This document shows positions 2,892 through 57,938 of a DNA stretch of 64,000 bases, in pieces. Made by a program: the position numbers and the translations under genes. The stretch is taken from contig CM046863.1 of assembly GCA_025617745.1 (NCBI GenBank), positions 8,668,935 to 8,732,934 of the forward strand. Reading direction: 5' to 3'. Source of the DNA: Heliocidaris erythrogramma. Lineage: Eukaryota > Echinodermata > Echinoidea > Camarodonta > Echinometridae. Under the pieces are notes generated by a model. It saw nothing but the letters and a program-made list of their open reading frames with translations. It was not told where the DNA came from and made no database searches. The first letter of the stretch is position 1; every line of letters begins with the position of its first letter.

Positions 2892-4124
2892 TCAAGATGA
2901 CTTTCTCCTCCATCGTCTTTCTCTCTCTCTCTCATCAAGGCAGGTTCGTAGTACGCATACATTCACACCGTTGCAGGTGTGGTTGGCGAGGTTAAAATGG
3001 CGAGCAACCGGGAGTCCAGGGGTGTTCAGCCGAATAGACCTCAGGTGCTCGGTGACTCTGTCTGCCAGTCGTCTTTTGGTCTCGCCGATATACACCATGC
3101 CACAGAGAGTGCACGTCAATCCGTATATGACGCTGCTTGTAGTACAGGTGTACTGCCCTCGAATATGCCACGTACCTTTGGGACCCACGACATCATCCGA
3201 AGAGACAAGGGCGCAGGTCTTGCATCTGGGTCGCATGCATCTAGTGGTGCCGAGGGAAGCGATCTCTCCTGTATGCAGTCATAATAGGATTCACACCAAA
3301 GATCTTCTCTGTAGATTGGTCGGAACCTAGGATGTTCAGGTTGGCACGAACAGCACGGGCGATGCGTTCCGTCGTCTTGTTGTACGTCATGACCAGAGGG
3401 GTACGGGAGTTGGAAGTGTTGGGCCTCTTGGTGAGTGCTTGTTGCCGGGTAATCGTGCTGGCCTTAACCTTTGCCTCTTCAACAATCTTAGCGGGGTAAC
3501 CTCGGTTGGTGAAGAAAGCTGCCATCTCATCAACCCTTCATTCGAACAGGGTGTCGGTGCTGCATATCCGTCGAAGCCTCAGAAACTGGGAAAAGGGGAT
3601 CGCCTTCTTGCAGGATGGGGGATGACAGGAGTCATACCTTAGATAAGAGTGTGAGTCAGTCGGCTTGTAGTGCACATCTGTAGCTAGACCACCGTTGTGA
3701 ATACTGACCGAGACATCCAGAAACGTAACACATTCATCAGAAATCTCATGGGTGAAGCGAAGTGATGGATGGTAATCATTGCAGTGCCCTATGAAACGAT
3801 CTAAATCATCCCGTGAAGAGGTGAAGACACCAACATAGTCATCAATGTACCGCTTGAGAACAACTGGTTTCGAATGTTCATAATTCTGAAGCATATCCTC
3901 CTCGACGTAACCAACAAAAAGGCATGCGTAAGCAGGCCCCATCTTGGTGCCCATGGAGACCCCCTTCTTCTGAGCATAGTACTCGTTGGCAAAACTGAAA
4001 GAGGACAAGGTGAGCACCAACTCCGCTAGTCTCAGGAGGGTTACATCGCTTGGTTATCCTTGACACGGATAACGCTCAAGATAATGCTTCAAAGCTCGTA
4101 GACCATCCGCTGTGGGAATGTTGA
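2892..4124 (-). pseudogene. Penelope-like element ORF (RT plus GIY-YIG endonuclease), decayed
   Basis: Read on minus from 4124, the frame enters inside the RT at NIPTADGLRAL, then gives KKGVSMGTKMGPAYACLF, VLKRYIDDYVG (catalytic DD), FLDVSVSI and HYKPTDSHSYL, the ordered RT blocks of PLEs. A linker follows, then a GIY-YIG-type domain: VIYGLTCTLCGMVYIGET with R-ADRVTEH downstream. Defects: in-frame stops near 4064 (after YPCQG) and at about 3538 (after DTLFE), and a frameshift near 3245-3255 before the endonuclease. The 5' third of RT is missing; similarity ends near 4124 next to a MITE. No function is expected from this copy. Confidence 0.85.
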
Positions 4125-8125: not shown

Positions 8126-8321
8126 CAATGATAATTGTGTAAACTATATCCTGGGAGGTTCTCCTATTAATTTACCTATTAATCACCATTAATTTATAGA
8201 ATGATAGACATTTTAAAATAATTTATTGTGTAGAAAAGTGTATTGTTTTATATATTTTAGCTTGCCTAAATCTTGTATATTTGATTGATCTCCTTGGATT
8301 TCGAATTTGTCCTTATAACTC

Positions 8322-11300
8322 ATGTTATTATACCCCTGTTGTTGTTGTGAAAAAACTGTTAAATCAAATCAAAAGGCTCTTTTATGTACTGACTGCAAAA
8401 ACTGGATCCATACTTCTTGTGCTGGTGTCCCGGACAGCCTTTATAATGATCCTTCGGAACATTTCGTAGAATGGCGTTGCCCAAAATGTATTTTTGCCAT
8501 ACTACCATTCAATGATACTGAGCATTGTGTAAATGAACCCACCCCTTCTAATGAAATAAAAATCTCACCAAAATGTGATACAAATGAATTTATTCATGTG
8601 CGCAAATATGATGAATTGTCTGGAAAAGGTCTTAAGTTTGTTCATTTGAACATCACTAGTTTGTTGAAAAACATTGACGAAGTCCGGTTATTTTTAAATG
8701 AAAATGATGTAGATGTGTTTGCCTTAAACGAAACAAGGTTGGATAATACTATTAGTGAGAATGAAATATCTGTTCCAAGTTATAATATTGTTCGTAAAGA
8801 CAGAGATCGAATGGGAGGTGGCGTAGCGATTTATGTAAAAACTGGTATTCATTTTCAGATCATTGAACATGATGTGTTATCTCAATTGGAAGCTATATGT
8901 ATCAAATTATGCCACGCCAAATCTACATGTAAGCCAATATTCTTTGTTGATTGGTATAGGCCACCGAATTCTAAATTAGAAGTTATGGACTTGTATGAAA
9001 ACTTACTTCAGTTTATAGATAGCTTTAATGCTGACATTATAGTCATGGGTGATGTAAATTGTGACATTCTAGATAAAAAGTACAACTCTGTTAGCGCTAA
9101 ATATGCAAATACGAACAATGTGTATTCCATGGAACAGATTAATACAAGTGAACCGACAAGAATTACAAACAAATCGGCTACTTTAATAGATCATATGGTA
9201 ACGAATAATAAAATGTATGTAAAGTCATCTGGTATAATACATATAGGTATGAGTGATCACTCAATGAGTTATATGATTTGGAAGGTGGAATTACCTAAAT
9301 CTGAACCCCGAGTTATAGAATATAGAAATATAAATAAAATTGATATGAACAGCTTTAAGCAAGATCTTAGAAATCAACCATGGGAAACTGTGAAAGATTT
9401 CTCCAGTCTTGACGATGCGGTCTGCAAATGGGAAGAATTATTGATGGAAATAGTAAATAAACATATGCCCATACGAACAAAGCGAGTAAGGAATCATATA
9501 TGCCCTTGGATGAACTCGTATATTCATAAACTCATGAGAGAACGAGATAAATTAAAGAAAAGGGCTTGGAAAGAGAAAGACAGTATCTTAATGAGTCAAT
9601 ATAGGAAACTAAGGAATAAAGTAACAGGAGAAGTAAGAAAATTGAAGAAAATTTATTATGTAAACAAATTAACTAGTACTGAAAGTAATCCAGTGCAAAC
9701 ATGGAAAATATTAAAAGGATTGTTACCCAATAAGAAATCTTTAAATTATTTTGGTAATGAAGATAATGAAGAGGTAGCAAACACATTTAATTCTTTCTTT
9801 TCTCAAGTAGGTCAGAAGTTGTCTGAATCGATCCCATGTGATACTCATAATAACTTTTCTGAAGGTGATAAGTTCATTGAAAATGAGTTTGAGTTGATTA
9901 CAGTTTCTGAAAATGAAGTTTTAGCAGAATTGAATAAACTTAAAAATAAGAAATCAACTGGTATTGAAGGGATATCATCTACCATGCTTAAATTGTCTGT
10001 TGAAGAAATTACACCATCTCTCACTTATTTGATCAATAGGTCAATCTCTGAGAAAGTCGTACCTTCTAGATGGAAAGTAGCAAAAATAATTCCTTTGTTT
10101 AAGAAGGGTGATAGAAGCCTCCCAGATAATTATAGACCGATATCGTTGTTGCCTGTAGTTTCAAAAGTATTAGAACGTGTTATACACAAACAACTATATA
10201 ACTACATAAAAAATAATGACTTTTTAGCAGCGGAACAGTCTGGATTTAGACCACTGCACTCTACGCTCACGTCCCTCACTAAGGTCACGGATGATTGGCT
10301 CAGTGCAATGGACAAAAAAATGTTACACCGGCGCCGTGTTCGTAGATCTCAGAAAGGCGTTTGACACAGTAAACCATAACGTACTTTTAAAAAAGTTGCG
10401 GAGTATAGGTATAAGTAATTCTTGTATCAAGTGGTTTAGGGAATATTTAAGTAATCGAAAAATTGTGACTCAAGTTATTAACACATTTTCACGGGAAGAA
10501 TTTATTTCATACGGTGTACCTCAAGGATCCATTCTGGGACCATTACTGTTTGTAATCTACATAAATGACATAGTAAAACAAATTGATACCTGTGATATTC
10601 ATTTGTATGCTGACGATACAGTGTTGTATTTTTCCGATCCCAATCCGCATAAAGTTCGAACGGTATTGCAAAAGGACTTGAGCAGGGTTGTTACCTGGAT
10701 GAGTAACCATAGACTGAGTTTGAATTGTGATAAAACAGTTTGTATGCTCATTGGAAACAGGGCATTATTGAACAAATATAATATTTTAGATTTGAATGTA
10801 AATGCAAATAAACTTGTACAAGTTAAGTATGTGAAATATTTAGGTATCACAGTTGATGAAGAATTAAGCTGGAACATACAGGTTGAAAACGTTTGTAAGA
10901 AAGTAAGTAAAATGATCAGTTTCTTACGAAGGCTTAGAAATGTAATTAATGAAAAAAATATGAAATTAATATACAAGTCTTTCATATTACCGCATTTAGA
11001 TTATGCAGATTTAGTATGGGATTCTTGTAAAAATAAACACATAGATAGGATTCAAAAACTTCAAAACAGAGCAGGGCGAATAATTTTGAAGATTAATCCA
11101 TATTCTTATACATCAAACCATAAAGTACACCACATTCTTCAATGGGATTCCATTGCTTCTAGACGTACACAACACTTACTTCAATTAGTCTATAAAGCTT
11201 TAAATAAAATGACTCCATTTTATTTGACAAAACTTTTTAGTGTTAAAGAAAATTTATATTCATTACGATCTGAATATAATCTAAGCATCCAGATACCAAG

Positions 11301-11436
11301 GAGTAATTACTGCAAGAGAATGGTTTCATACAGGGGCAGTAAGAATTTTAATTCACTTCCTTTGAGTGTTAAAAAGGCATCCACTGTAAATGCTTTTAAA
11401 GGACACCTAAAAGAGCATATACTTTCATACATGTAA
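8322..11436 (+). pseudogene. Non-LTR ORF2: PHD finger, APE-like endonuclease, reverse transcriptase; one frameshift
   Basis: ATG at 8322. Residues 6-56 carry a C4HC3 PHD-type pattern: Cys pairs at 6/9 and 22/25, His30/Cys33, Cys53/56. The endonuclease starts near residue 105 (FVHLNITSL, ALNETRLDN, GDVNCDI, ending SDHS). RT blocks are NYRPISLLP, VDLRKAFDTVNH, YGVPQGSILGPLLF and the catalytic LYADDTVLY, then a C-terminal region with LQNRAGRIILK. The frame breaks at about 10321-10324, where an extra T puts MDKKM out of phase with YTGAVFVDLRKAFD; the second frame runs intact to TAA at 11436. Apart from that base, ORF2 is about 1,037 codons, normal for the clade. Confidence 0.9.
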
Positions 11437-17897: not shown

Positions 17898-19141
17898 GTT
17901 TCTCAATCCAGAAGGATTCCCTACAGAGGATCATGTCATGAGATTTATTTTCAATAAGTTCAATACCTGTAATTTGTAGATTTTGAAGTGAGTGTGAGGG
18001 GAGGTTAAAGTGCTTGGCGAACGGTAACTTCTTGTGTTCCAGTGGTTTATGGTAATTACGAATCTCTGATCTAGTATTATTCAGCCTTGAGTAGAGTGAG
18101 GTCTCCGTTTTGCCGACGTATTGCATTTGACATTGTGAACATGTAAGAAGATAAAGTACAAACGTAGATTTACAGTTCATGCGGGATCCTATTCTAAATT
18201 TCCTACCAGTGGTTGTACTACTAAATGTTGTCGTTTCATTAATGTGTGAGTGCATACTGCATTTTTTTAGCATCACAACCAAAGAAGCCATTTGGGTTTG
18301 TGGTACTCGTGTTCGGTGTTGGTGTATTGTGCGTATTAGGTGTGTGGGAGGGATCTCTTGCGCGAACAAGGATGTTTCTCAGCGTGCGTCCCCTGCGATA
18401 TGATACTGTCGGAGGTTTGTGGAATGTACGTTGCGCGTTTTCTGACTGTTGTAGTGTGGTGAAGTGTTGGTGAATGTCACGGGGGACAGATGAGGTGGCT
18501 GGAGAGTATGTGAGTGGGAAGTAGATGTCATGTCCACCAAGGTCCCGATCTATTTTGTAAGAGAGGAGTTCCTCCCTTGGGATGTGTGTTGCTTTTGAAA
18601 TTTGTTGTTTAACTGTTTGTTTGTCATAACCTCGTTCGAGGAAGAAGTGTTCAAGCTTCTGAAGGTGGTGGGTAGTGGACTCTTCATCAGAGCAAATACG
18701 TCTAACCCGTAGGGCTTGACTATATACAATCCACAATTGAAGGTTTTCGTTAATATACAATCCCTCGAAACGTATGTGGGGGCTGGCAAGATGTGGGGAG
18801 GAGGTAGGTGTGGGTGTCAGTGGGTTTTGTGAAGAGTTCCGTGTGGAGTTGAGAGTGTGTGTGCTTGACAGTTACATCAAGGAAGTGAGTTTGTGTCGGT
18901 GATGAGTCAAAGGTGAACTTTATGGTGGGGTGAATGTTGTTCATGAGTTCTTGGAGCGTTGTGGGTGTGCGTGGAGATCCATTCCATAAGAAAAATATAT
19001 CATCAATGTATCGGCGCCATGTGTTTTTGAATAGTGTGAGGTGTGTTGAGGACATTATTTTCTTTTCAACATTACCCATGAATATGTTTGCGTATGATGG
19101 TGCAATGGGTGTGCCCATTGCAGTTCCCTCCAACTGTAGGT
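17898..19141 (-). pseudogene. Penelope-like element, 3' part (RT C-terminal half and GIY-YIG endonuclease)
   Basis: On minus from 19141: LQLEGTAMGTPIAPSYANIF, then WRRYIDDIFFLW (catalytic DD), THFLDVTVK and FTKPTDTHTYL, then a linker with SEQ-type RRICSDEESTTHH and FLERGYDKQTV, then the endonuclease (FVLYLLTCSQCQMQYVGKT with RLNNTRSEI, LPFAKHFNLPSHS, ESFWIEKL). Frameshifts occur near 18740 and 18300. The C-terminal end is replaced by the TTAA element at 17893. The 5' part is displaced to 23895-24090 by the foldback insertion. Confidence 0.85.
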
Positions 19142-19150
19142 AGTCCTGCC

Positions 19151-20175
19151 GCTTCTAGGACTCCTACCCCCTGGACAACCACCTCCCGGATAACCACCCC
19201 TAGGATAACCACCCTCTACGACAACTACCCCCTAGGGCAACCACCCTCTAGGACGACTACCCCTCTAGGACAACTACCCCCAGACAACTACCCCCTAGGA
19301 CAACCACCCTCTAGGACAACTACCCCCCAGATAGCTAGCTTCTAGGACGACTACCCCTCTAGGACAACTACCCCCAGACAACTACCCCCTAGGACAACCA
19401 CCCTCTAGGACAACTACCCCCCGGATAACTACCCCCTAGGACAACTACCCCCTAGGACAACTACCCCCAGGACAAATACCCCCCTCCCCGGACAACTACC
19501 CCGTGGACAACTACCCCCAGGACAACTACCCCCTAGGACAACAACCCCCATGACAACTACCCCCGGACAACTACCCCCTAAGACAACTACCCCCAGGACA
19601 ACTTCCCCCCGGACAACTACCCCCTGGACAACTACCCCCAGGACAACTACTCCCTGACAACTACCCCCTAGGACAACTACCCCAGGACAGCTACCCCCGG
19701 ACAACCACCCCCTGGACAAGTACCCCCAGGACAACTACTCCCGGACAACTACCCCCTAGGACAACTACCCCAGGACAACTACCCCCGGACAACCACCCCC
19801 TGGACAACTACCCCCTGGACAACTACCCCCAGATAACCACCCCTAGGATAACCACCCCTGGACAACTACCCCCTAGGGCAACCACCCTCGAGGACGACTA
19901 CCCCTCTAGGACAACTACCCACGGATAACTACTCCCAGACAACTACCCCCTAGGGCAGCCACCCTCTAGGACAACTACCCCCCCGGATAACCACCCCCAG
20001 ACAACTACTCCCTAGGACAACTACCCCTAGGGCAACCACCCTCGAGGACGACTACCCCTCTAGGACAACTACCCCCGGATAACGACCCTCCAGACAACCA
20101 CCCCCTAGGACAACCACCGTGTAGGACATCTCCTTGACAACTACCACCTAAAGTAACTACCACCCAGATAACTAC
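19151..20175 (+). repeat. Left foldback arm, first array of GGACAACTACCCCC units
   Basis: About 60 degenerate 15-17 bp units: GGACAACTACCCC with variable CTA/AGG spacers. Variants include GGATAACCACC and GGACGACTACC. Every ORF across it is a repeat translation (Asp-Asn-Tyr-Pro-like or Gly-Val-Val-Val), not a gene. Confidence 0.85.
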
Positions 20176-20436
20176 CATCGGACAATAACGACTTAGGGGG
20201 AATATTAAATCGGACAACAAGCAACATACTCTCATCCATGGCATGTAAGCCAACTACCCCCCCCCCCCCCCCCCCCCCCCCGGTAGTCCAACAATCAGTA
20301 AGGATATGATGAGTATTAGGAGGAGGGGGTATCTAACCTCCCACGGTAAGAACTTTTGGTGCATTATAATGTTCAATTTCACCACACCACATAAAAATGA
20401 TATCATTGCAGTTGAATGTGTCTATACCCTTGAGCA

Positions 20437-20469
<33 letters not shown>

Positions 20470-20700
20470 CTTCCCATGGTATTACATTTTTGTTTTAAAA
20501 GTTGGGTGTTTATACTCGGTGTATGATGGTGCATTGTACTGTTTGAATATTTCCATCTGTTAATTTTTTTCAAAGGGAACGTTCTTTAAAGGACATTAAG
20601 GACATTATTTTCTTTTCAACATGACCCATGAATATGTTTGCGTATGATGGTGCAATCGGTGTGCCCATTGCAGTTCCCTCCAACTGTAGGTAGTCCTGCC
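20176..20700. repeat. Spacer with C25 and G30 runs and a duplicated PLE flank
   Basis: It contains 25 C at 20257-20281 and 30 G at 20438-20467, separated by 156 bp. Then 20600-20700 is a near-exact second copy of 19050-19150 (PLE RT codons plus AGTCCTGCC), offset 1,550 bp. The left arm together with 101 bp of host flank has thus been tandemly duplicated, or misassembled. Confidence 0.75.
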
Positions 20701-21352
20701 GGTTCTGGGACTCCTACCCCCTGGACAACCACCTCCCGGATAACCACCCCTAGGATAACCACCCTCTACGACAACTACCCCTGGGGCAACTACACTCTAG
20801 GACGACTCCCCCTCTAGGGCAACTACCCCCAGACAACTACCCCCTAGGACAACCACCCTCTAGGACAACTACCCCCCAGATAACTACCTTCTAGGACGAC
20901 AACCCTCTAGGACAACTACCCCCAGACAACTACCCCCTAGGACAACCACCCTCTAGGACAACTAACCCCCGGATAACTACCCCCTAGGACAACTACCCCC
21001 TAGGACAACTACCCCATAGGACAAATACCCCCCCCCCCTCCCCGGACAACTACCCCGTGGACAACTACCCCCTGGGACAACTACCCCCAGGACAACTTCC
21101 CCCCGGACAACTACCCCCTGGACAACTACCCCAGGACAACTACTCCCGGACAACTACCCCCTAGGACAACTACCCCAAGACAACTACCCCCGGACAACCA
21201 CCCCCTGGACAACTACCCCCTGGATAACTATCACCAGGACAACTACTCCCGGACAACTACCCCCTAGGACAACTACCCCAGGACAACTACCCCCGGACAA
21301 CCACCCCCTGGACAACTACCCCCAGATATCCACCCTTAGGATAACCACCCCT
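20701..21352 (+). repeat. Left foldback arm, second array
   Basis: It repeats the terminal motif of the first array (GACTCCTACCCCCTGGACAA, then CCTCCCGGATAACC) and continues as the same units to 21352, where the unique core starts at GCTACGATCGCATCAG. Confidence 0.8.
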
Positions 21353-22690
21353 GGCTACGATCGCATCAGAATCTCATGAACTTTGTAGAATGTGTGTATA
21401 CATACTGTGTGTATTCTGTCTGACTGGGTGTTTCCACATGTTAAAAAAATACAATCCTAGAACAGAACATCAAATTTCCTGGACTTTTATGAAATTTCAT
21501 GGAATTAAAAAGAAAAATCCACTTATTGTTCTTTCTGATGTTTCTTTTTTTTAATGAATTGTTAGGGAGGTTAATGTCATAAATTTTGTTTTTAATTGTT
21601 GCACCATAATTTCAACTTTCCATACCAAAAAGTAAGTTGCATTCTCTACGAGTCCATCCATGCGCGCGCGTATCACTTTCCCAGCTGTGCACTTTCCTCC
21701 ATAGAGCCCATTCAATCATTCATCAAAACATAAATTTCTACTTTTGGAAATACTTATATCTTTTTCACTTTTTAACAATTTAATTCCGTTAAAAAAGGAA
21801 TATGAATATTGAAGAGACAAAGAAGCTGCTAAGCATAAAAAGGAAATGATTTCATATGTAGAATTCTGGCCAATTTTGTTTGAAAACGGCCTTTTTATGT
21901 TGCCACACAAAACGTAGAACACCCAAACTATGAGAAAGAATCGACTCGTAGAAACAAGGTAAATTTGTTAATTGGTTAGAAGTGCTGTTAATCGTGGAAA
22001 TTAACCAGTTAAATGGTTTCTTAAAATAGTAAGATTTCTAGGTTTGGCCTATCTTAGTTTGACTTCTGTAATTGGTTGCGTAGAATTCCGGCCTTTTTAT
22101 GAATTAATCATGAAATATCGGTGTGTTTAGACTGATCACACGACCGATCTGTGTGCGCGCACGTGTATATGGCTAGGCTGATGACATTCAGGCTACGTGC
22201 AGATGCAGTAAATTGCGCGAAACTTATTATCAACATGGACACACATGAATCACAAGAAAGTTCAGCAAATACAATATCTTGATTATAGTACCACAGTCTT
22301 TAATTTGCTGGTTGCTTGTAGAATATTTGCGCAACGAATTGATCTTATTTCATATTTATGACTATGGTGTTTTTGCAAGCTAATGAATCTCGTGTCACTG
22401 ATATTTGTTCAAGGCTACCGATAAAGGTTAAATGAAGGTTGATATTAGATATAATATAAGATAATAATATCACAATCCATTTATTGTTTTTAAAGAAGAT
22501 AAATGTCCATTAACTTAAGGCTATCAGCGGGCCTGTCCTTGAATAGCAAAACGCTGAAGGCTTTGACAATTTTCTGCCCACATTGATCTACTATAAAAGA
22601 TAATGAGGATCAATATTTGTTTGTGGAGTGGAAAAGCTTGCACCTGAACTAAATACCGTAGAGAACTACAATCTGGATTACAATCTGAAT
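21353..22690. other. Unique core of the foldback element
   Basis: AT-rich, 1.3 kb, with no ORF above about 70 codons and no recognisable domain. It is probably a non-coding loop segment of the foldback element. Confidence 0.55.
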
Positions 22691-23885
22691 ACTTTTCCTA
22701 GAGGGTGGCTGTCCTAGGGGGTAGTTGTCCAGGGGGTGCTTGTCCTGGGGGTAGTTGTCTTAGAGGGTGGTTGTCCTGAGGGTAGTTGTCCTAGAGGGTA
22801 GTTGTCCTAGGGGGTAGTTGTCTGGGGGTAGTTGTCCAGGGGTGGATGTCCAGGGGGTAGTTGTCCTAGAGGGTGGTTGTCTGGGGGGGGGGGGGGTAGT
22901 TGTCCAGGGGGTGGTTGTCCAGGGGGTAGTTGTCCAGGGGCTGGTTGTCCGGGGGTAGTTGTCCTGGGGGTAGTTGTCTTAGGGGGTAGTTTTCCTAGGG
23001 GGTAGTTGTCTGGGGGTAGTTGTCCTGGGGGTAGTTGTCCTAGGGGGTAGTTTTCCTAGGGGGTAGTTTTCCTAGGGGGTAGTTGTCCTAGGGGATAGCT
23101 GTCCTAGAGGGTGGTTATCCTAGGGGTGGTTATCCGGGGGTGGTTGTCCAGGGGGTAGGTGTCCGGGGTTAGTTGTCCAGGGGGTAGTTTTCCGTGGGGT
23201 AGTTGTCCTGGTGGTAGTTGTCCAGGGGGTACTTGTCTGGGGGGTATTTATCCGGGGGGTAGTTGTCCTAGGGGGTAGTTATCTGGGGGGGGGGGGGTAG
23301 TTATCCGGGGGTAGTTGTCCTAGAGGGGTAGTAGTCCTAGAGGGTGGTTGCCCTACGGGGTAGTTGTCCTAGGGGATAGCTGTCCTAGAGGGTGGTTATC
23401 CTAGGGGTGGTTATCCGGGGGGTGGTTGTCCAGGGGGTAGGTGTCCGGGGGTAGTTGTCCTGGGGGTAGTTGTCTTAGGGGGTAGTTTTCTAGGGGGTAG
23501 TTGTCTGGGGGTAGTTGTCCTGGGGGTAGTTGTCCTAGGGGGTAGTTTTCCTAGGGGGTAGTTGTCTGGGGGTAGTTGTCCAGGGGGTGGTTGTCCTGGT
23601 GGTAGTTGTCCAGGGGGTAGTTTTCCGGGGGGTAGTTGTCCTGGTGGTAGTTGTCCAGGGGGTAGTTGTCTGGGGGGTAGTTATCCGGGGGGTAGTTGTC
23701 CTAGGGGGTAGTTATCTTGGGGGGGGGGGTAGTTATCCGGGGGTAGTTGTCCTAGAGGGGTAGTAGTCCTAGAGGGTGGTTGCCCTACGGGGTAGTTGTC
23801 CTAGGGGATAGCTGTCCTAGAGGGTGGTTATCCTAGGGGTGGTTATCCGGGGGGTGGTTGTCAAGGGGGTAGGTGTCCGGATACG
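22691..23885 (-). repeat. Right foldback arm (inverted array) with three copies of the terminal motif
   Basis: Complement of the left-arm unit (TAGGGGGTAGTTGTCC). A terminal-type block (GGATAGCTGTCCTAGAGGG ... GGGGTAGGTGTCCGG) appears at about 23092, 23371 and 23804, the last being the true end. G runs of 9-12 occur at about 22885, 23288 and 23709. Confidence 0.8.
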
Positions 23886-23894
23886 AGTCCTGCC

Positions 23895-24090
23895 AATTAA
23901 ATTTAAAATTATTAAGTTTAAGACTAATTCAAGAAGTCGAATTAATTGATTCGTGGGTGGGTTTTGATTGAATCGTATGTTGAGCGCTTCTTGACAGGCC
24001 ATGATACCCTCTTGATGGGGGATATTCGTATAGAGGGAGGTGACGTTCTGGGAGAGAGAGGCAGGATGGACGTGCAACTTTCCGTTCTCC
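23895..24090 (-). pseudogene. Penelope-like element, 5' part of the split RT gene
   Basis: On minus it encodes QNVTSLYTNIPHQEGIMACQ and TNQLIRLLELVLNL, the RT finger/palm entry that precedes the GTAMGTPIAPSY block in PLEs. A 1-base shift lies near 23910 before NNFKFNWQD at the foldback junction. Similarity fades upstream of about 24090. It belongs to the same gene as 17898-19141. Confidence 0.8.
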
Positions 24091-24584: not shown

Positions 24585-26055
24585 CATTCTAAAAAGTGAA
24601 GTGCTAAAAACGAGTGCTAATTGGAAGTTTGCACTTGACGTGCTATTTCTAACACCTCACGTGCCATTTGCGTCTGGGAGATGATAAGGTGCAGAAAATT
24701 GAGTGCTAAAAATAAAGTGCTGAATGTTAGGACGCTCGTTTTACACTTAAGCAATTTCGTAATTAGGATTTGCGCATGAGAAGATAAAGGTCATTTGACA
24801 TAAACTGGCATCTTCGTTTAAATGCACTGAGATAAGCATCGACTGTGTAATGATTATTCATATATTCATTTAATTATAATTTTCATTAAATTAACTGAAA
24901 AGTAACAAAGTGTTCATTGATGGTTGGTATTTGACAGTCTGTCAAAATGATAGCCAACTTGCAAACAATGCGCTTTACCAAGTGTCTATTGACGTGTTAT
25001 TCTAGTCACCTGGTCTACGATGTCTTTCTTTCATAGAGTTTGAATTCTGTAGGTTGCTATGTCGGGCAAGCTTACGTATTATCTTTCTTTGAAAAGATGC
25101 CTATCCTAATGAAAAAGGGAAAGGTCATTTGCGAAAAGTTGCTCATAGGCCAATTACGAAATCGTTTATTACGCAACTGTAGTGCAAAAGGCATCATCTG
25201 CTGCACAGGCATGGCGTGGTTAGTAAATATTTAAGACATTAAATTTAGCACTTCTGTAAATGTATGCGAATAAAGATATCAAATAATATGATATTTACAT
25301 TAATTTTTGTGGTGGTGGATATGAAACATGATGAAAAGCAATGAAAGTGAGATTCCATGTTTGAGCATGTGTGGTGTGGCCAATCGTCTACGGTACGCGT
25401 TGTCGTTGACATGAAAAGTATTGATCATGCAAGGTCAGCCAGCCATGGGGCGCGATCGACCGCGCCGGCCGGGCCCGGGAAGTTTGGAAGGCGGTGTGTG
25501 TGCTTTTTTTCGTCACGATTGTGGATTGCTGAAATGGAACAATTAAACCTCCGAAATTGCCACTTCTTGGTCTAAAGTAATTCTCGGATGATTTAATCCA
25601 CATGCCATGGTTTTAGTCGATATCATCTTTGTATACAACCAGTTCATATCAATCTAAAAACAAAATCTAGACCTTAGTGTAGGGCTGTTTAACAGACTAT
25701 AGAAGGGTGAGTTTTCAGCACTACAGGTGTAATTTTGTGCATACTATTTGTGTGTGTTCTTTAGCACTATATTGGGTGCAAAAGTGTTAGCACTAGTAGT
25801 GCCGTTTTGGGGGCTCTAAAATGGGTTATTTAATGCACTAGAAGTGTGGTTTTGCGAGCTGCATGCGTCTAATAGCACCAGAAGTGTAAAAAGGCTTACA
25901 CTTAAAGTGTTTAAAGTAGCACTTGGACTGGTGTTGAATTATAGCACTTGTACAAGTGCTACTTTAGCACAATTTGTGCAGTCCCTATGCGTGCCCTTAC
26001 AGGTGCTGCCACCAAATCTTGAGGTGCTAAAAATAGCACTTGATATTTTAGAGTG
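24585..26055. mobile_element. 1.47 kb TA-flanked AGTGCT-rich inverted-repeat element A1
   Basis: The left end CATTCTAAAAAGTGAAGTGC and right end GCACTTGATATTTTAGAGTG are inverted copies; TA flanks both sides (24583-24584, 26056-26057). AGTGCT/AGCACT words cluster in both subterminal zones. No transposase is encoded. A larger inverted copy, A2, lies at 35481-38037. The CACTNTAAAA ends relate it to elements B1, B2 and C, so a shared transposase (unknown, TA-targeting) is likely. Confidence 0.7.
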
Positions 26056-26057
26056 TA

Positions 26058-35175: not shown

Positions 35176-35480
35176 TTAGCGGCAAACTGCTACCAGTATA
35201 TAGCAGTGCAGGTTGTGTTCGAGTGTTCGAGTGTTCGAGCGTTGCTAGCGGTTATACTCGCTATCTCCTCTACCCATATTCATAATATTCGACCTTTGAT
35301 AGCGGTCATACTCGCTATCTCCTCTACCCATATTCATGTTCGAGTTTTGTTAGCTGTTATATTCGCTAAATCCTCTGACCATACAAATATCCGAGTTTTG
35401 TTAGCGGTTATACTTGCTGTCTAATCTCCCCTTTATCAATGTTCGAGTTTTGCTAGCGGTTATACTCGCTATCTCCTCTA
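35176..35480 (-). repeat. AGCGAGTATA minisatellite, left (inverted) block
   Basis: Four to five units of about 60 bp with CTAGCGGTTATACTCGCTAT, the inverse of the AGCGAGTATAACCGCTA units at 38400-38740 and 40621-41100. Element A2 is inserted at its right edge after a TA at 35479-35480. Confidence 0.65.
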
Positions 35481-35966
35481 CACTCTAAAAAATGAAGTGC
35501 TATCTTTAGCGCCTCAAGATTTTGAGGCAGCACCTGTAAGGGCACGCATAGGGACTGCACAAATTGTGCTAAAGTAGCACTTGTGCAAGTGCTATAATTC
35601 AACACCAGTCCAAGTGCTACTTTAACACTTTAAGTGTAAGCCTTTTTACACTTCTGGTGCTATTAGACGCATGCAGCTCGCAGAAACCACACTTCTAGTG
35701 CATTAAATAACCCATTTTAGAGCCCCCAAAACGGCACTACTATAGTGCTAACACTTTTGAACACACACAAACAGTATGCAGAAAATCACACCTGTAGTGC
35801 TGAAAACTCACTCTTCTATAGTCTGTTAAACAGCCCTACACTAAGGTCTAGATTTTATTTTTAGATTGATATGAACTGGTTGTATACATAGATGATGTGG
35901 ACTAAAACCATGGCATGTGGATTTAATCATCTGAGAATTACTTCAGACCAAGAAGTGGAGAATTAA

Positions 35967-36612
35967 AGGGAAATTAACCTCAGCGTATGAATTAGCTTAT
36001 TTTGAATGGTGTAGTATATGCCTCTTATTTGATACATGCAATTTCATGTAAAAACACAGGATATAGATATAAATCACTATTTTCCAGCCAAGTTATCGTC
36101 TGCTAGCAATAATAAGGGGGCTGCCATTACTTTATGTGTACACGAACATATTTTTCATCCCAAGTAAAATTTCCTTCATCGTTAACTTGTAATTGATTTT
36201 TAGAGGACAAATATATATTAGATAAAGTCACATATTCTGAAATGTAAGTTTAGTTTTATATATTTTTTAAAAGGTCTTAATTTGTTCATAAAAAATATAC
36301 TTCATAAAAAATATACGTCAAGGACGGAGAATTGACGTCAAGGACGGAGACAATCGTAACAATACCAAAACAAAGCGAGGAATCTGCTTTACAGGATGGC
36401 TATTAGAACTCATGGGTCGTCAATTATCTAGGCCCATGGCCAATAACAATCGTAATACAATCAGAACAAAGCGACGTATCTGTTGTAAAGGTAGGCTATT
36501 ATCAATGCATATGGTACCTAATGATCCGTGTCATGCACAAAATGGCAGCCTCCATGGAAAGACGTAGCAGACAATAGGTGCATCTAGAATATCACGTGGG
36601 GTTAATTGTCCT
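35967..36612. mobile_element. 646-bp TTAA-flanked element K2
   Basis: AGGGAAATTAACCTCAGC at the left, GTGGGGTTAATTGTCCT at the right, TTAA outside both (35963-35966, 36613-36616). The homologous point in A1 (about 25535-25545, read inverted) has a single TTAA, so A1 gives the empty site. The sequence appears identical to K3 at 57256-57901. Confidence 0.85.
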
Positions 36613-37090
36613 TTAATTGTTCCATTTGGGCAATCCACAATCGTGACGAAAAAAAGCACACACACCGCCTTCCAAACTTCCCAGGCCGGGCCGGCATGAT
36701 CAACAATTTTCATGTCACACCACACATGCTGAAACATGGCATTTCCACTTCATTGCTTTTCATCATGTTTCATATCCACCACCACAAAAATTAATGTAAA
36801 TATCATATTATTTGATACCTTTATTCGCATAAAATTACAGACGTTCTAAATTTAATGTCTTAAATTTTTACTTACCACGCCATGCCTGTGCAGCAGATGA
36901 TGGCTCTTGCACTACAGTTGCGTAATAAGCGATTTCGTAATTGGCTCATGAACAACTTTTCGCAAATGACCTTTCCCTTTGTTCATTTGGATAGGCATCT
37001 TTTCAAAGAAAGATAATACGTAAGCTTGCCCGACATAGCAACCTACAGAATTCAAACTCTATGAAAGAAAGACATCGTAGATCAGGTGAC

Positions 37091-37495: not shown

Positions 37496-38040
37496 TGTCA
37501 GATACCAACCATCAATTAACACTTTGCTGCTTTTCAGTGGATTTAATGAAAAGTATAATTAAATGAATATATGAATAATCATTACACAGTCGATGCTTAT
37601 CTCAGTGAATTTTAAACGAACATGCCAGTTCATGTCAAATGAGCTTTATCTGCTGATGCGCAAATCCTAATTATGAAATCGCTTATTAGCACAGAATTGT
37701 GCAGGTGACGTTGGTCAGCACTTGAAGTGTAAAACGAGCGTCCTAACATTCAGCACTTACTTTTAGCACTCAATTTTCTGCACCTTATCATCTCCCAGAC
37801 GCAAATGGCACGTGAGGCTTATTGGCACAGAATTGTGCAGGTGCTAAAATCACGGGACGTTGGTCAGCACTTGAAGGGTAAAACGAGCGTCCTAACATTC
37901 AGCACTTACTTTTAGCACTCAATTTTCTGCACCTTATCATCTCCCAGACGCATATGGCACGTGAGGTGTTATAAATAGCATGTCAAGGGCAAACTTCCAA
38001 TTAGCACTCGTTTTCCAGCACTTTACTTTTTACTGAATAC

Positions 38041-38740
38041 TAATAGGAGAAGGGCAGCTAGCGAGTATACTCGCTATCAAGTATAGGCCTACTAATATAG
38101 GGGAAGGGCAGCTAGCGAGTATATTAATTCGCTATCAACACACCCAGTACTAATAGGGGAAGGGCAGCTCGCGAGTATACTCGCTATCAACACACCCAGT
38201 ACTAACAGGGGAAGGGCAGCTAGAGCCGAGTATACTCGCTATCTACACACCCAGTATAAATAGGGAAGGGGAGCTATAGCGAGTATACTCCCTGTCAACA
38301 CACCCTGTACTAATAGGGGAAGGGCATCTAGCGAGTATACTCGCTATCAACACACCCAGTACTAGTAATGGGGGAAGGGCAGTTAGCGAGTAATTATATT
38401 TGCTAGTAGCAGATAGCGAGTATAACCGCTATCGTCCTTCGTACATAATGATATATATTGGTCGCGAATAGCGAGTAAAACCGCTGTCCTCCGTCACACA
38501 CTTATATACTGGTAGCGAATAGCGAGTATAACCCCTATCGTCCTTCTTACATAACTGGTACCGAATAGCGAGTGTCACCGCTATCGTCCTTCGTACATAA
38601 TTGTATATACTGGCAGCAAATAGCGAGTAAAACCGCTAGCCTCCCTCCTACATAATTATAGACTAGTAGGGAATAGTACGTGAGTATAACCGCTTTACTC
38701 CCTAGCCTCCTATCTTCTAGTAGCGGAAAGCGAGTATATG
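38041..38740 (+). repeat. AGCGAGTATA minisatellite, central blocks
   Basis: 38041-38400 repeats GGGGAAGGGCAGCTAGCGAG and TATACTCGCTATCAACACAC with period about 57-60 bp and contains the 16-bp palindrome AGCGAGTATACTCGCT. 38400-38740 repeats AGCGAGTATAACCGCTATCG and TCCTTCGTACATAATT with period near 55 bp. Confidence 0.75.
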
Positions 38741-40620: not shown

Positions 40621-41100
40621 TCCGCTATCGTCCTTCGTACATAATTCTTTATAATGGTAGCGAATAGCGAGTAAAACCGCTATTTTCCGTCACACACTTA
40701 TGTATACTGGTAGCGAATAGCGAGTATGACCGCTATCGTCCTTCCTATACATAACTGGTACCGAATAGCGAGTATAACCCCTATCCTCCCTCCTACATTA
40801 TTATATATACTGGCAGCAAGTAGGGAGTATAACCGCTATCTTCCCTCTTACAAATATATACTGGCAACGTATAGCGAGTATAACCGCTATACTCCCTCCT
40901 ATACACATTTATAATAATGGTAGCGAATAGCGAATATAACCACTATCTTCCCTCCTACATAATTACATACTGGTAGCGAATAGCCAGTATAACCGCTATT
41001 CTCCCTCCTACATAATTATATACTGGTAGCGATTAGCGAGTATAACCGCTATTCTCCCTCACACACATATATACTGGTAGCGAATAGCCGCTCCAATTTT
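40621..41100 (+). repeat. AGCGAGTATA minisatellite, right block
   Basis: About eight to nine units of 50-58 bp (TACTGGTAGCGAATAGCGAG, TATAACCGCTATCTTCCCTC) in the same orientation as 38400-38740. It ends at ACTCTTATATATGAGAGCAG, similar to the outer edge near 35150 (TATATAAGAGCAGGAATT). Confidence 0.75.
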
Positions 41101-47640: not shown

Positions 47641-48512
47641 CATACAAATGTAAATAGGAAGAAGATCGGAATAAGGAGAAAGAACAGGGGAAGGAAGAGT
47701 ATTTGAAAGCTGTGTTTACTTCCTCTAATGAGAGGCTTTGTGGGTACTCCACTATGAATCGATACTGATCTTGTCTATGTTTTGTTTGGACTTTGTTTTT
47801 TGTTTTTGTTTTTGTTTTGTTTTTTGTTAAATCGTAAATTGCATGATTCGGTTGCACCGAATTTAGTCTTGTTCCAATTTACTGATATGCATTACGCACC
47901 GAATGGTAATATGATAAGTTTTTTTTTTTTCTTCTTTTGAAAGTTTTAACATTACCTTTATGGATTTACAATAATATTATAATTGAACCTTTTCTATTTA
48001 GTACATCTGTAATACATTATAAGGTTCTATATGCAAACATGTACAACTTTTCTCTCTGCACTGCTCTTTTTCATGAAAAGAATCATTCTCCAATTCTATT
48101 TCGAAATAAATTCACTGGAATCATGTATTTCTCTAACAAATTGACTTTGATAAATTAAGTATGATATTACTGTATTATTATTTAAAACTTCATAAACGTT
48201 ATTTGATGCAGCAGTGCCGAGACAAGAGTTCATTAAGGGTTCCATATTAGTTATGAATGTATTTTATGGCTGAGGTGCTCAAGATTAGTGAACTTGTCAT
48301 TATGAAAGTTAATCATTTGATTAACGCTTTAGGAACTCATCATCATCATCATCATTCATCCTTATGTCACCTCCCATCTTTACATGGTCATTTCATTCTC
48401 TTTCCATCTCATGACCATTACCACTGTCATACTAGTACGACACAGAAACTTTACATGCGAACTTGCTGTTACACTTTTAATCACAATAGATTGGTAATAA
48501 TAGCTATTTTTT

Positions 48513-51464
48513 ATGACTACTGATCTAGACCAGTTATCTATTTTCAATACCAACAATTTATCCTTTGATAGTAACTATTACTCAATTGACGAATTTACTT
48601 CTAGTTTTCAAAAAACAGGGAATAGATTTAGTTTACTTCATGTAAATGCTAGAAGTCTAAGCAAAAATTTTGATTCTCTGGAAACATTGCTATATACTTT
48701 GAACAATTTTCCCTTTTCAATTATTGGTGTCACGGAAACTTGGCTTCATAATACTTCGCCCAACCTATTTAACTTACAACCTTATACACTCATCAGACAT
48801 GATCGAGAAGAAAAGAGAGGAGGGGGTATAGCATTTTATATCAATGAACAACTACAATTTAAATTCCGAAAGGAAATATCATTAACACAAACTGAATCAT
48901 TGTTTTTAGAAATCATAAATTCAAACAGCAAAAATATAATTGTTGGATTAATTTACAGACCCCCTCATGGTTCTATAAATTCATTTTGTGAAGATCTTGA
49001 TATATGCCTCCATACTCTTTCGGGAGAAGGCAAACAATTATATCTAATGGGTGACTTTAATATAGACTTGTTATCTCATAGTAGTTATCATGATACACTT
49101 ATTCATATTATTTATGCTAATAGTTGTTATCCGCATATAAATAAACCAACCAGGATACATGGTCAATCTTCAACCCTTATAGATAATATTTTTTCTAACA
49201 TCTTTGACAAAGACATGACGAGTGGATTACTATACTCCGATATATCCGACCATTTGCCAATTTTTTTAATATGTAACAATGACACTTCAAATAAAAAGTC
49301 AGTTAACTCAAACATGTACAGAAAGCAAACACCCCAAAATATTGAATCCCTCAAAAGTGATCTAGCAAGAGAAGAATGGTTGGATATTTATAGTGAGTCA
49401 GATGCAAATATTGCATACGAAACTTTTAATAAAAAGTTACAGAAGTATTACGACAAAAATTTTCCTCTGGTATCTGTAAACAAGAACAATAAACGTTGTA
49501 AAATGCCATGGATAACAAAAGCAATTCTGCGATCCATACACACAAGGAACAAACTTTATAAGGCATATTTAACAAACTCTACTACTCTTAATAAAAACAA
49601 ATATAAAACGTACCGGAACAAATTAACTAATATCATTCGAACTTCTCGTAAAATGTACTATTCCGATAAACTTAATCGAGTGAAATCTAATATGAAATCT
49701 ACTTGGGAGATTATAAACGATCTGATTGGCAAGAAAACAAAAAAATTACCTACTAATAATTTTACAATGGATAATACAGCAATACAGTCTGAAGATATAG
49801 CTCATACCTTTAATTCCTTTTTTGTAAATATAGGACCTAATTTAGCAAATAAACTCAATAAACCGAACGAAAATTTTACTAAATTTCTTCCTGAACCTAC
49901 AACTTCTTCACTGTTTTTTAATCCCACAAATCCCAATGAAATAATCGAAATAACAAAAAATCTCAAGTCAAGTAAATCGCAAGGCCATGATAGAATCAGT
50001 GCTTTTCTCCTGAAACAAATTATACATTTTCTCGTTTCTCCGCTAACTCACATATTTAATATATCTATTAACACCGGGAAATGTCCTGATTCCCTAAAAA
50101 TTGCAAAGGTAAATTCCGTTTTCAAAAAAGACAACCCCCGCGAAATAAGTAATTACAGACCTATATCAATTCTTCCCAGTATATCAAAAATCCTAGAAAA
50201 GATTATTTACAAAAGGTTCTATAACTTTTTAGATACATTTCATTTTCTAAATCTAAATCAATATGGTTTCAGAAAAAGACATTCAACCGACCTAGCTTTA
50301 GTACAATTATATGATAAAATAACGAATGCCATAGCCAATAAAGAACACGTAATAGGAGTATTCATGGACTTATCAAAAGCCTTTGATACGCTTGACCACC
50401 ATATTTTACTTAAAAAACTTCACTCTTATGGAGTTCGTGGAGTTGCCCTCTCCTGGTTTGAGAGCTATTTATCTAATAGACAACAATATGTAGTGTATAA
50501 TGATGTTTCTTCAAATTTCCTACCAATCCAATGCGGTGTTCCACAAGGGTCAATACTAGGCCCTTTACTTTTTCTATTATATATTAATGATTTAACAAAT
50601 ACAACGCCTCTTTTATCTTTCATATTATTTGCAGATGACACAAACATTTTCTGTTCACATCATAATTTAAATACCCTTGTAGATACACTTAATAATGAGT
50701 TACCAAAGTTATCTTTGTGGTTCAAATGCAATAAATTGTCCCTTAATTTAGATAAAACCAATTTCATGTATTTTAAGCACGTAAATTCTCATGTCATTGA
50801 TTTTCCTTACGACATATTTATAGATAATGTACCTCTTGAAAGAAAGATACAAACAAAATTTTTGGGCGTCATTATCGATGAAAATTTATATTGGAACGAA
50901 CATATACGTCATATAACTGCTTCTATTTCTAGGAATATTGGTATACTTTACAAAGTAAAGAAATTTGTCTCTTGTAAAACGCTCATTATGCTTTATAATT
51001 CATTGATATTACCTTACATAACATATTGCAATTTAGTATGGGCCACCACCAACAAAACAAAAATCAACTCTATTTACTTATTACAAAAGAAAGCCCTTCG
51101 CATATGTACTGGTTCACCATATTTATCTCACACTAGACCAATATTTTACCAACTGAAAACTCTAACAGTATTCGACATCAATTCACTACAAAGTTTACTG
51201 TTTATATTTAAGTATCTAAATAACTTGCTCCCTCTTTCATTTCAAAACTTTTATAATTTAAATAACACTATTCACTCCTACCCTACTCGCAATTCCTCCA
51301 ATTTTCATCTTTTCAACCCAAAGTTACTGATTGCCCATAGATCAATAAGACACCATGGTCCCGACCTATGGAACTCTCTCCCAGAATTCATTAAATCCTG
51401 TTGTTCCCTTTACTCATTTAAAGCCAAAGTTAAAACGATGTTACTATCTGAATATATAACGTAA
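48513..51464 (+). CDS. Intact APE-endonuclease/reverse transcriptase polyprotein (983 aa) of N3
   Basis: Intact from ATG 48513 to TAA 51464. Endonuclease at about residues 38-250: HVNARSL (45), TETW (75), GDFNID (180) and SDISDHLP (243) hold the expected metal and catalytic residues. RT at about 480-760: NYRPISILP (547), MDLSKAFDTLDH (618), CGVPQGSILGPLLF (674) and catalytic FADD (706). The C-terminal region has LQKKALRICTG and IRHHGPDLWNSLP. Length and order fit the CR1/L2/Jockey supergroup, without a C-terminal RNase H. It should nick target DNA and prime reverse transcription there. The intact frame suggests recent insertion and possible activity. Confidence 0.93.
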   Translation: MTTDLDQLSIFNTNNLSFDSNYYSIDEFTSSFQKTGNRFSLLHVNARSLSKNFDSLETLLYTLNNFPFSIIGVTETWLHNTSPNLFNLQPYTLIRHDREEKRGGGIAFYINEQLQFKFRKEISLTQTESLFLEIINSNSKNIIVGLIYRPPHGSINSFCEDLDICLHTLSGEGKQLYLMGDFNIDLLSHSSYHDTLIHIIYANSCYPHINKPTRIHGQSSTLIDNIFSNIFDKDMTSGLLYSDISDHLPIFLICNNDTSNKKSVNSNMYRKQTPQNIESLKSDLAREEWLDIYSESDANIAYETFNKKLQKYYDKNFPLVSVNKNNKRCKMPWITKAILRSIHTRNKLYKAYLTNSTTLNKNKYKTYRNKLTNIIRTSRKMYYSDKLNRVKSNMKSTWEIINDLIGKKTKKLPTNNFTMDNTAIQSEDIAHTFNSFFVNIGPNLANKLNKPNENFTKFLPEPTTSSLFFNPTNPNEIIEITKNLKSSKSQGHDRISAFLLKQIIHFLVSPLTHIFNISINTGKCPDSLKIAKVNSVFKKDNPREISNYRPISILPSISKILEKIIYKRFYNFLDTFHFLNLNQYGFRKRHSTDLALVQLYDKITNAIANKEHVIGVFMDLSKAFDTLDHHILLKKLHSYGVRGVALSWFESYLSNRQQYVVYNDVSSNFLPIQCGVPQGSILGPLLFLLYINDLTNTTPLLSFILFADDTNIFCSHHNLNTLVDTLNNELPKLSLWFKCNKLSLNLDKTNFMYFKHVNSHVIDFPYDIFIDNVPLERKIQTKFLGVIIDENLYWNEHIRHITASISRNIGILYKVKKFVSCKTLIMLYNSLILPYITYCNLVWATTNKTKINSIYLLQKKALRICTGSPYLSHTRPIFYQLKTLTVFDINSLQSLLFIFKYLNNLLPLSFQNFYNLNNTIHSYPTRNSSNFHLFNPKLLIAHRSIRHHGPDLWNSLPEFIKSCCSLYSFKAKVKTMLLSEYIT

Positions 51465-56583: not shown

Positions 56584-57255
56584 CCATGTTCATAGTCAAG
56601 TTGTTTAATGTTTCATAATTAAATCCGCTATTTGCTAGGTAATTGGATATCTGTATGGTCAAGGCATAATGGAAAATCAACCAGGAGAAAGTAGACAAGG
56701 TTTCAGACAAAGGAAAGCAGATTAAAAGGCTGGCATGGTCATTCTCAAACTGTATGAAACATTCACTTTCTACACTAGGAACAGCTGGGGTGAAGATAAT
56801 TGTATCCCCCGAACTAGTGTTCGGGGATACTATGGATTTGGCATCGTCGCGCCGCGTCCGCCGCCGAGATTTTCTTGTGAGCGCTCTACTGGCTGCAGTT
56901 CTTGTCGGATCACCTTCATATTTCGCATGGAAGTGCATTGTGGTAAGATGAAGACGCCTATTGTTTTTGGTGTTTGTGGAGTCATCGTTGCCATGGTAAC
57001 CATATTTTTTGAATAAATAGTAAAGACTTTCTTGTTAGCGCTCTGCCGGCTGCACTTTATCCATTTCAGTCACAACATGGATTCAAATGTGGGATGGGTG
57101 ACGGGTTCGGGGGATACATGTACTCGGACTGGTCCCCCCTCGGAGTGCTCTAGTTGTTATCAAGGGGGCTGCCAAATATTGGCATTGTTGATGAATGTGC
57201 ATTCCTGTAACTGGTACGCGGGAATGATGGATAGAAAGTTTACTGTGAATTTTAA
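56584..57255. other. Non-coding stretch with GTATCCCC hairpin
   Basis: 56802-56830 forms an inverted repeat (GTATCCCCCGAAC, TAGT, TTCGGGGATAC) with one bulged C. The rest is moderately CpG-rich (CGTCGCGCCGCGTCCGCCG near 56846). ORFs do not match known families. Confidence 0.45.
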
Positions 57256-57901
57256 AGGGAAATTAACCTCAGCGTATGAATTAGCTTATTTTGAATGGTG
57301 TAGTATATGCCTCTTATTTGATACATGCAATTTCATGTAAAAACACAGGATATAGATATAAATCACTATTTTCCAGCCAAGTTATCGTCTGCTAGCAATA
57401 ATAAGGGGGCTGCCATTACTTTATGTGTACACGAACATATTTTTCATCCCAAGTAAAATTTCCTTCATCGTTAACTTGTAATTGATTTTTAGAGGACAAA
57501 TATATATTAGATAAAGTCACATATTCTGAAATGTAAGTTTAGTTTTATATATTTTTTAAAAGGTCTTAATTTGTTCATAAAAAATATACTTCATAAAAAA
57601 TATACGTCAAGGACGGAGAATTGACGTCAAGGACGGAGACAATCGTAACAATACCAAAACAAAGCGAGGAATCTGCTTTACAGGATGGCTATTAGAACTC
57701 ATGGGTCGTCAATTATCTAGGCCCATGGCCAATAACAATCGTAATACAATCAGAACAAAGCGACGTATCTGTTGTAAAGGTAGGCTATTATCAATGCATA
57801 TGGTACCTAATGATCCGTGTCATGCACAAAATGGCAGCCTCCATGGAAAGACGTAGCAGACAATAGGTGCATCTAGAATATCACGTGGGGTTAATTGTCC
57901 T
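57256..57901. mobile_element. 646-bp TTAA-flanked element K3, same as K2
   Basis: Same ends and length as K2, with TTAA at 57252-57255 and 57902-57905. By eye I found no difference from K2, including the internal GTCAAGGACGGAGA doublet. Contains no ORF of note. Confidence 0.85.
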
Positions 57902-57938
57902 TTAAGTTGCGTAACTTGTCCTGCATCAATTACAGACA

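Follow-up and report, generated by a model that had tools for sequence, protein, structure and literature searches.

A foldback transposon family of probable Mutator/Phantom type, with one copy inside a Penelope-like reverse transcriptase gene of the sea urchin Heliocidaris erythrogramma

What kind of mobile DNA interrupts a reverse transcriptase gene of a Penelope-like element (PLE) on contig CM046863.1 of the sea urchin Heliocidaris erythrogramma, and which enzyme could have moved it there? The locus lies in a window of 64,000 nucleotides, the whole stretch of DNA analysed here (C11:8668935-8732934 of a 1.06-Gb genome, contigs being numbered with the prefix C). A sequence-only reading had taken the insertion for a foldback transposon of the FB/TU type with minisatellite arms. 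Our data identify it as one copy of a well-delimited, apparently non-autonomous family of an already known kind. We consider it probable, at roughly three in four, that this family is a non-autonomous foldback of the Mutator superfamily (Mutator-like elements, MULEs), most like the Phantom clade and dependent on a transposase that is encoded at another place and acts in trans.

The element occupies positions 19151-23885 of the window and lies between two copies of the 9-bp direct repeat AGTCCTGCC (Table 1); only 3 of 200,000 random flank-position pairs matched over 9 bp. Joining the flanks through a single AGTCCTGCC gives the minus-strand reading NNFKFNWQDYLQLEGTAMG, which carries the PLE reverse transcriptase frame across the junction, as the sequence-only reading had proposed. 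A small frameshift lies just upstream of the junction in this PLE copy, and the host of the insertion is a dead retroelement gene. With the joined flanks as query, we found 16 uninterrupted PLE copies elsewhere in the genome with 93-98% identity across the junction, of which 15 align over nearly the whole homologous 302 bases and the remaining one over bases 73-275; four partial PLE rows elsewhere that do not cross the insertion site were left out of this count. Five more diverged matches (67-71% identity) also run straight across the junction. All eight of the 16 empty sites that were fetched have one AGTCCTGCC and no insert. These sites confirm a delimited element in a Penelope reverse transcriptase gene, although they are paralogous PLE copies and not the empty allele that had been suggested as a check.

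At the two ends and once internally, units of about 15 bp form tandem arrays (19155-20118, 20714-21323 and, inverted, 22696-23878) with 63, 41 and 76 motif occurrences in the left, internal and right array (at most 3 mismatches), spaced mostly by 14-16 bp. The first 85 bp of the two ends align without gaps at 86% identity at offset 0. None of 954 other left-arm offsets fits the right end equally well, and among 1,110 right-arm offsets a single rival for the left end (87%) lies 432 bp in, at a place where a higher-order repeat of the right arm brings back the arm's terminal stretch. Hence both the long inverted arms of short tandem units and the in-register alignment of the ends, first noticed in the sequence-only reading, hold. 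Arms of this minisatellite-like kind, with a variable number of units, might also be expected from an inverted minisatellite expansion within the PLE gene, with no transposon involved. Sites without an insert and duplications of 9 bp refute that explanation, and its probability is negligible given also the fixed tips, the duplications in different flanks and the hundreds of dispersed tips described below.

The elements end in 7-bp tips, A1 on the left and A2 on the right. Exact left tips are present 591 times and exact right tips 544 times in the genome, with reversed-pattern controls at 0 and 0. We fetched 20 loci, ranks 3-22 among the first 40 places to be scored, a sample that therefore favours well-kept left ends. 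These loci, one of which has two elements, gave 18 A1-A2 pairs, 17 with a duplication of 8-10 bp (at most 1 mismatch) and 14 with a perfect one of 9 bp. The right end was absent at L024 and L026 and doubtful at L038, and L037 had no duplication. When the window copy and two larger elements (L042 and L043) are included, perfect duplications of 9 bp flank 17 of 21 elements and one further duplication matches in 8 of 9 positions, compared with at most 7 of 9 identical bases in mismatched flank pairs (n=420).

Pairing of tips and their distance to MULE matches were assessed on contigs C1-C3 of 26 (first 100 tip sites listed). Of the 98 exact A1 tips there, 45 have an exact A2 facing them no more than 30 kb away, against 0.7 expected by chance. 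The pairs span 289-700 bp (21 pairs), 1.9-6.7 kb (21 pairs), 9.8 kb (one) and 23 kb (two, which may be unrelated tips). Eight of the nine mapped copies below 1 kb are arms set back to back and the ninth is degenerate. Copies above 2 kb have cores, and in five of ten an inner stretch, for the most part outside the arrays, is inverted as well (in L030, 1.5-kb inverted repeats with 92% identity). Inverted tandem-repeat arms, and dispersed copies with duplications and empty sites, identify the family as foldback. The sequence-only reading had proposed a genome search with the terminal motif and would have been in doubt had no other copies appeared, or had another PLE copy carried the same array at an unrelated position. 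Neither outcome came about: the search found many paired inverted copies with 9-bp duplications, and the 16 PLE copies without an insert are empty at this very position.

Between base 13 and about base 170, the left and right end consensus sequences of the 21 elements are identical. Differences are confined to five of the first seven bases (GGTTCTA versus CGTATCC) and base 12, and GGA follows each tip. Every one of 19 elements had one A1-type and one A2-type tip (at most 1 mismatch), the elements having been delimited by those tips. Within 12 kb on C1-C3 there were two facing A1-A1 pairs and no A2-A2 pair, and both A1-A1 pairs look like duplicated junctions because they have the same flank in inverted order. 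The insertion sites also show a preference. Among 18 elements, T precedes the duplication in 16 and A follows it in 14, with a purine beside the T in 16 and a pyrimidine beside the A in 11; T makes up 0.32 of the nearby flank bases. Genome-wide, T precedes 360 of the 591 exact A1 tips. In a separate observation, the flank GCCTAAGTC stands before tip A1 at seven sites among the 100 matches listed (C1:32498309, C1:32499470, C3:775114, C3:49496623, C3:49498435, C3:50241084 and C4:23066192), two inverted pairs among them; this junction is one that has spread along with its flank.

To which known elements does this family belong? FB of Drosophila (with NOF) and TU of sea urchins share the foldback shape with repeated arms; autonomous FB copies have an NOF-type coding region and the TU duplication is 8 bp, whereas 9 bp is the rule here. 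The P superfamily, which includes Galileo, has a THAP-domain P-type transposase. The inner inverted domain of five of our ten large copies resembles FB/TU by description. TU is comparable by description only, as a foldback element (PMC4079207). In Tm1, a Mutator/Foldback family of Meloidogyne root-knot nematodes, the duplications are mostly 9 bp long, GGA follows the tips CGGTTAA and CCTACCC, and the units measure about 14 bp; one copy has a Phantom-type transposase and most have no coding capacity (PMC3169594). Our family shares with it the 9-bp duplication, asymmetric 7-bp tips generally present one per end, the inner GGA, short tandem arm units and mostly noncoding copies. It differs in unit sequence, in unit number (1-9 consecutive units in Tm1 versus up to 76 here), in having no copy found with a Phantom-type transposase and in its target preference, the Tm1 duplications being described as without a clear consensus (PMC3169594). 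With GGA included, our tips match those of Tm1 at 6/10 and 8/10 positions, 14 of 20 bases in all (letter-shuffle p 0.00016).

Similar features are described for Muta1 and Muta5, MULEs of Aedes aegypti that are grouped with Phantom (PMC6446971). They have 8-9 bp duplications, a terminal motif of 8-10 bp followed by nine subterminal units of 12-15 bp, and derivatives with varied interiors; Muta1 moves in yeast (PMC5225508). In contrast to our family, their terminal inverted repeats (TIRs) measure 145-151 bp, autonomous copies with a MULE transposase are known, and Muta1 is described as having no apparent target preference (PMC5225508). Tetris of Drosophila virilis is likewise an apparently non-autonomous foldback with duplications of 8-10 bp and tandem arm units, but its units are about 220 bp long (PMC4079207). 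Rehavkus, by description, has a 9-bp duplication and a minisatellite near one end, which differs in lying before the 3' TIR, and a PHD-finger transposase (PMC6446971). Because tips, units and duplications resemble those of Tm1 and Muta1/Muta5, we assign the family to the Mutator/Phantom foldback class pending an autonomous copy. The earlier label therefore stands as regards a foldback transposon, but FB/TU is loose, since tips, 9-bp duplication and unit length best fit the Mutator/Phantom foldbacks. A literature search, including one naming TU elements, found no publication describing this family, which is possibly catalogued in Repbase or Dfam.

Foldback shape is held to arise in different superfamilies (PMC4079207, PMC3688188), and no transposase was seen between the arms of our copies. 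A transposase of another superfamily could thus have moved the element, with the shape and the duplication of about 9 bp arising independently, as Galileo shows for the shape. We regard this as unlikely, given that 17 of 21 perfect 9-bp duplications agree with the 8-11 bp described for MULEs (PMC6446971) and that the asymmetric tip with GGA recurs in Tm1.

With regard to the enzyme itself, the genome contains 31 MULE-domain matches (82/82 candidates scored) and 49 FLYWCH matches (75/75 scored). The two domains lie near each other at six places, and the Phantom-type FLYWCH and MULE pair is hence present in this genome. At C4:41054782 both appear to fall in one frame of 290 amino acids (aa), judging from equal frame length and strand; at C2:38354307, C12:20963491, C13:35263493, C17:16377020 and C19:26810590 the FLYWCH match lies 2.5-5.7 kb upstream of MULE on the same strand. 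A Phantom-type MULE is our candidate for the mobilising enzyme, with a putative link to the arms. None of the 31 MULE matches was shown to lie between an A1 and an A2 tip, the tip lists being complete for C1-C3 only. Three same-strand A1 tips at C10:55089346-55099306 lie 14 kb from the MULE match C10:55113523 and are a possible lead to an autonomous copy, which we did not count because chance alone should give about 0.5 neighbours of this kind, from 31 matches and a density of one tip per 1.8 Mb.

Several observations weigh against a Mutator/Phantom origin. The sequence-only reading had suggested looking for autonomous copies with a transposase in the core, but the copies read showed no recognisable transposase in the open frames of their cores. 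The five MULE matches on C1-C3 are all at least 298 kb away from the nearest exact A1 tip. Two MULE loci that were read have no arms and were ruled out as autonomous partners, namely L041 (861 aa, with a PHD finger just under cut-off) and L044 (473 aa, ZSWIM1/3-like). At five of the six FLYWCH-MULE places the FLYWCH partner scores only about 32 bits. The Tm1 tip match comprises 20 bases, six of which come from GGA counted at both ends; counting GGA once leaves 11/17 (binomial 0.0006), and the wrong tip pairing still gives 6 + 5 = 11/20. Furthermore, an exact A2 partner within 30 kb is missing for 53 of the 98 A1 tips on C1-C3, and the preferred T is absent before 231 of the 591 A1 tips.

The largest A1-A2 pairs on C1-C3, besides the two unread 23-kb pairs taken as unrelated, were also rejected as autonomous copies, since L042 (9.8 kb) and L043 (6.7 kb) have frames that seem LINE-like (long interspersed nuclear element) by eye, or none that is notable, and no transposase. 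Pfam searches of one frame each from L042 and L043 gave nothing and a weak NNH3 match (E 0.0076), and one 94-aa frame of L035 gave no match.

From these comparisons we infer the class of enzyme, its binding to the units and a cut-and-paste reaction. Transposase molecules would bind the repeated units of about 15 bp in both arms and so pair the two ends. Cutting would take place at the asymmetric 7-bp tips, the element would be joined, with a stagger of 9 bp, to a target that is loosely palindromic (R T, 9 bp, A Y), and gap filling by host repair would leave the 9-bp duplication. Arm units bind the transposase in Galileo, and the same is stated to be untested for Foldback and Phantom elements (PMC3688188).

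The window copy is, in addition, internally rearranged, its junction with the host being present a second time in the interior. The interior, thought unique by the sequence-only reading, is instead made up of a 410-bp module and, at 20596-21352, a third AGTCCTGCC with PLE flank of about 105 bp and a second left arm, ahead of the core. Module sequence recurs as partial matches in 9/9 other copies above 2 kb that were compared; its homopolymers are runs of 25 C and 31 G, and the related stretch of L035 also has a poly-C run. L035 has the same core as the window copy (92% identity along 878 bp) and shares some of the module, with a module-to-core interval of about 1.6 kb versus about 780 bp in the window copy; as the one related copy, L035 may or may not show the older state. 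The 780 bp consist of a filler of about 20 bp, AGGACATTA twice, PLE flank of about 105 bp together with AGTCCTGCC, and arm B with its tip A1. At one base 8/8 empty PLE copies have T, whereas the true flank has A and so does the internal copy; this shared private base shows that the internal copy came from this locus itself. The two flank copies differ at 3 of 105 positions, one private change in each and one at the junction edge.

The event behind the internal copy may be a later break repair that copied the left junction, or a duplication of allele or assembly origin. In the former case, a copy of the element's left junction would have taken the place of part of the core after insertion into the PLE. 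The latter, in which the second junction reflects an assembly or haplotype duplication and no repair, is a serious contender that we place somewhat below even odds: the shared private base and the 3/105 differences are as between two alleles, and long homopolymers lie near the internal junction, but the filler, the tandem 9-bp repeat and the roughly 1.6 kb absent relative to L035 have the look of a repair scar, and other junctions in the genome are likewise duplicated together with their flank.

Table 1. Positions, within the window, of the foldback element, its parts and the flanking PLE sequence.
Feature	Position	Strand	Basis or remark
Left flank: downstream part of the PLE reverse transcriptase (host retroelement)	18750..19150	-	RVT_1 E 3.7e-6, under curated cut-off; reads ..DYLQLEGTAMG..
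Target-site duplication AGTCCTGCC, left copy	19142..19150		single in 8/8 fetched empty PLE sites
Tip A1	19151..19157	+	here GCTTCTA; family GGTTCTA
Left arm A, array of ~15-bp units GGACAACTACCCCC	19151..20185	+	tandem-repeat and motif counts
410-bp module, with poly-C (20257-20281) and poly-G (20438-20468)	20186..20595		partly present in other large family members
AGGACATTA, two tandem copies, rearrangement junction	20590..20607		sequence
Internal copy of PLE left flank and AGTCCTGCC	20596..20700		97% identical to 19046-19150
Second left end (tip A1) and arm B	20701..21352	+	sequence, motif counts
Core	21353..22690		no stop-to-stop frame of at least 110 aa; first ~875 bp 92% identical to L035 core
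Right arm, inverted array, ~403-432-bp higher-order repeat	22696..23885	-	tandem-repeat and motif counts
Tip A2 (CGTATCC, inward reading)	23879..23885	-	end consensus
Target-site duplication AGTCCTGCC, right copy	23886..23894		sequence repeat
PLE reverse transcriptase, upstream part (right flank)	23895..24046	-	similarity to other PLE copies stops near 24046

Other repeats are found elsewhere in the window. Arrays of units of about 51-55 bp with a near-palindromic core, AGCGAGTATACTCGCT or GCGGTTATACTCGC, at 35234-35481, 38038-38694 and 40650-41088 adjoin inverted copies of 24655-26057 and are perhaps another repeat-armed element. A 654-bp repeat (35963-36616 and 57252-57905) is 100% identical and hence probably a very recent copy. 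Further mobile elements at 8319-11436, 48504-51464, 3538-4053 and 59176-59649 comprise LINE frames (endonuclease and reverse transcriptase), a second reverse transcriptase fragment that is PLE-like by eye and a DDE transposase fragment.

For some foldback families, Tetris among them, no enzyme is known, and the tips found here point to Mutator/Phantom elements. The window copy is moreover an example of an element with a second version of its host junction in its interior. Given that elements nearly always have one tip of each kind, the tips may act as a left/right code for end pairing. It is possible, although we hold it as a tentative proposal, that this code is obligatory in a high-copy Phantom-type foldback lineage whose ends of about 170 bp are otherwise identical, whose arms are repeated transposase binding sites, which prefers a palindromic target and whose junctions can be copied along with host flank. 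With hundreds of copies, the tips, the duplication length, a target preference and an empty site are defined with single-base precision, which makes it testable how repeated arms and asymmetric tips contribute to the pairing of the ends.

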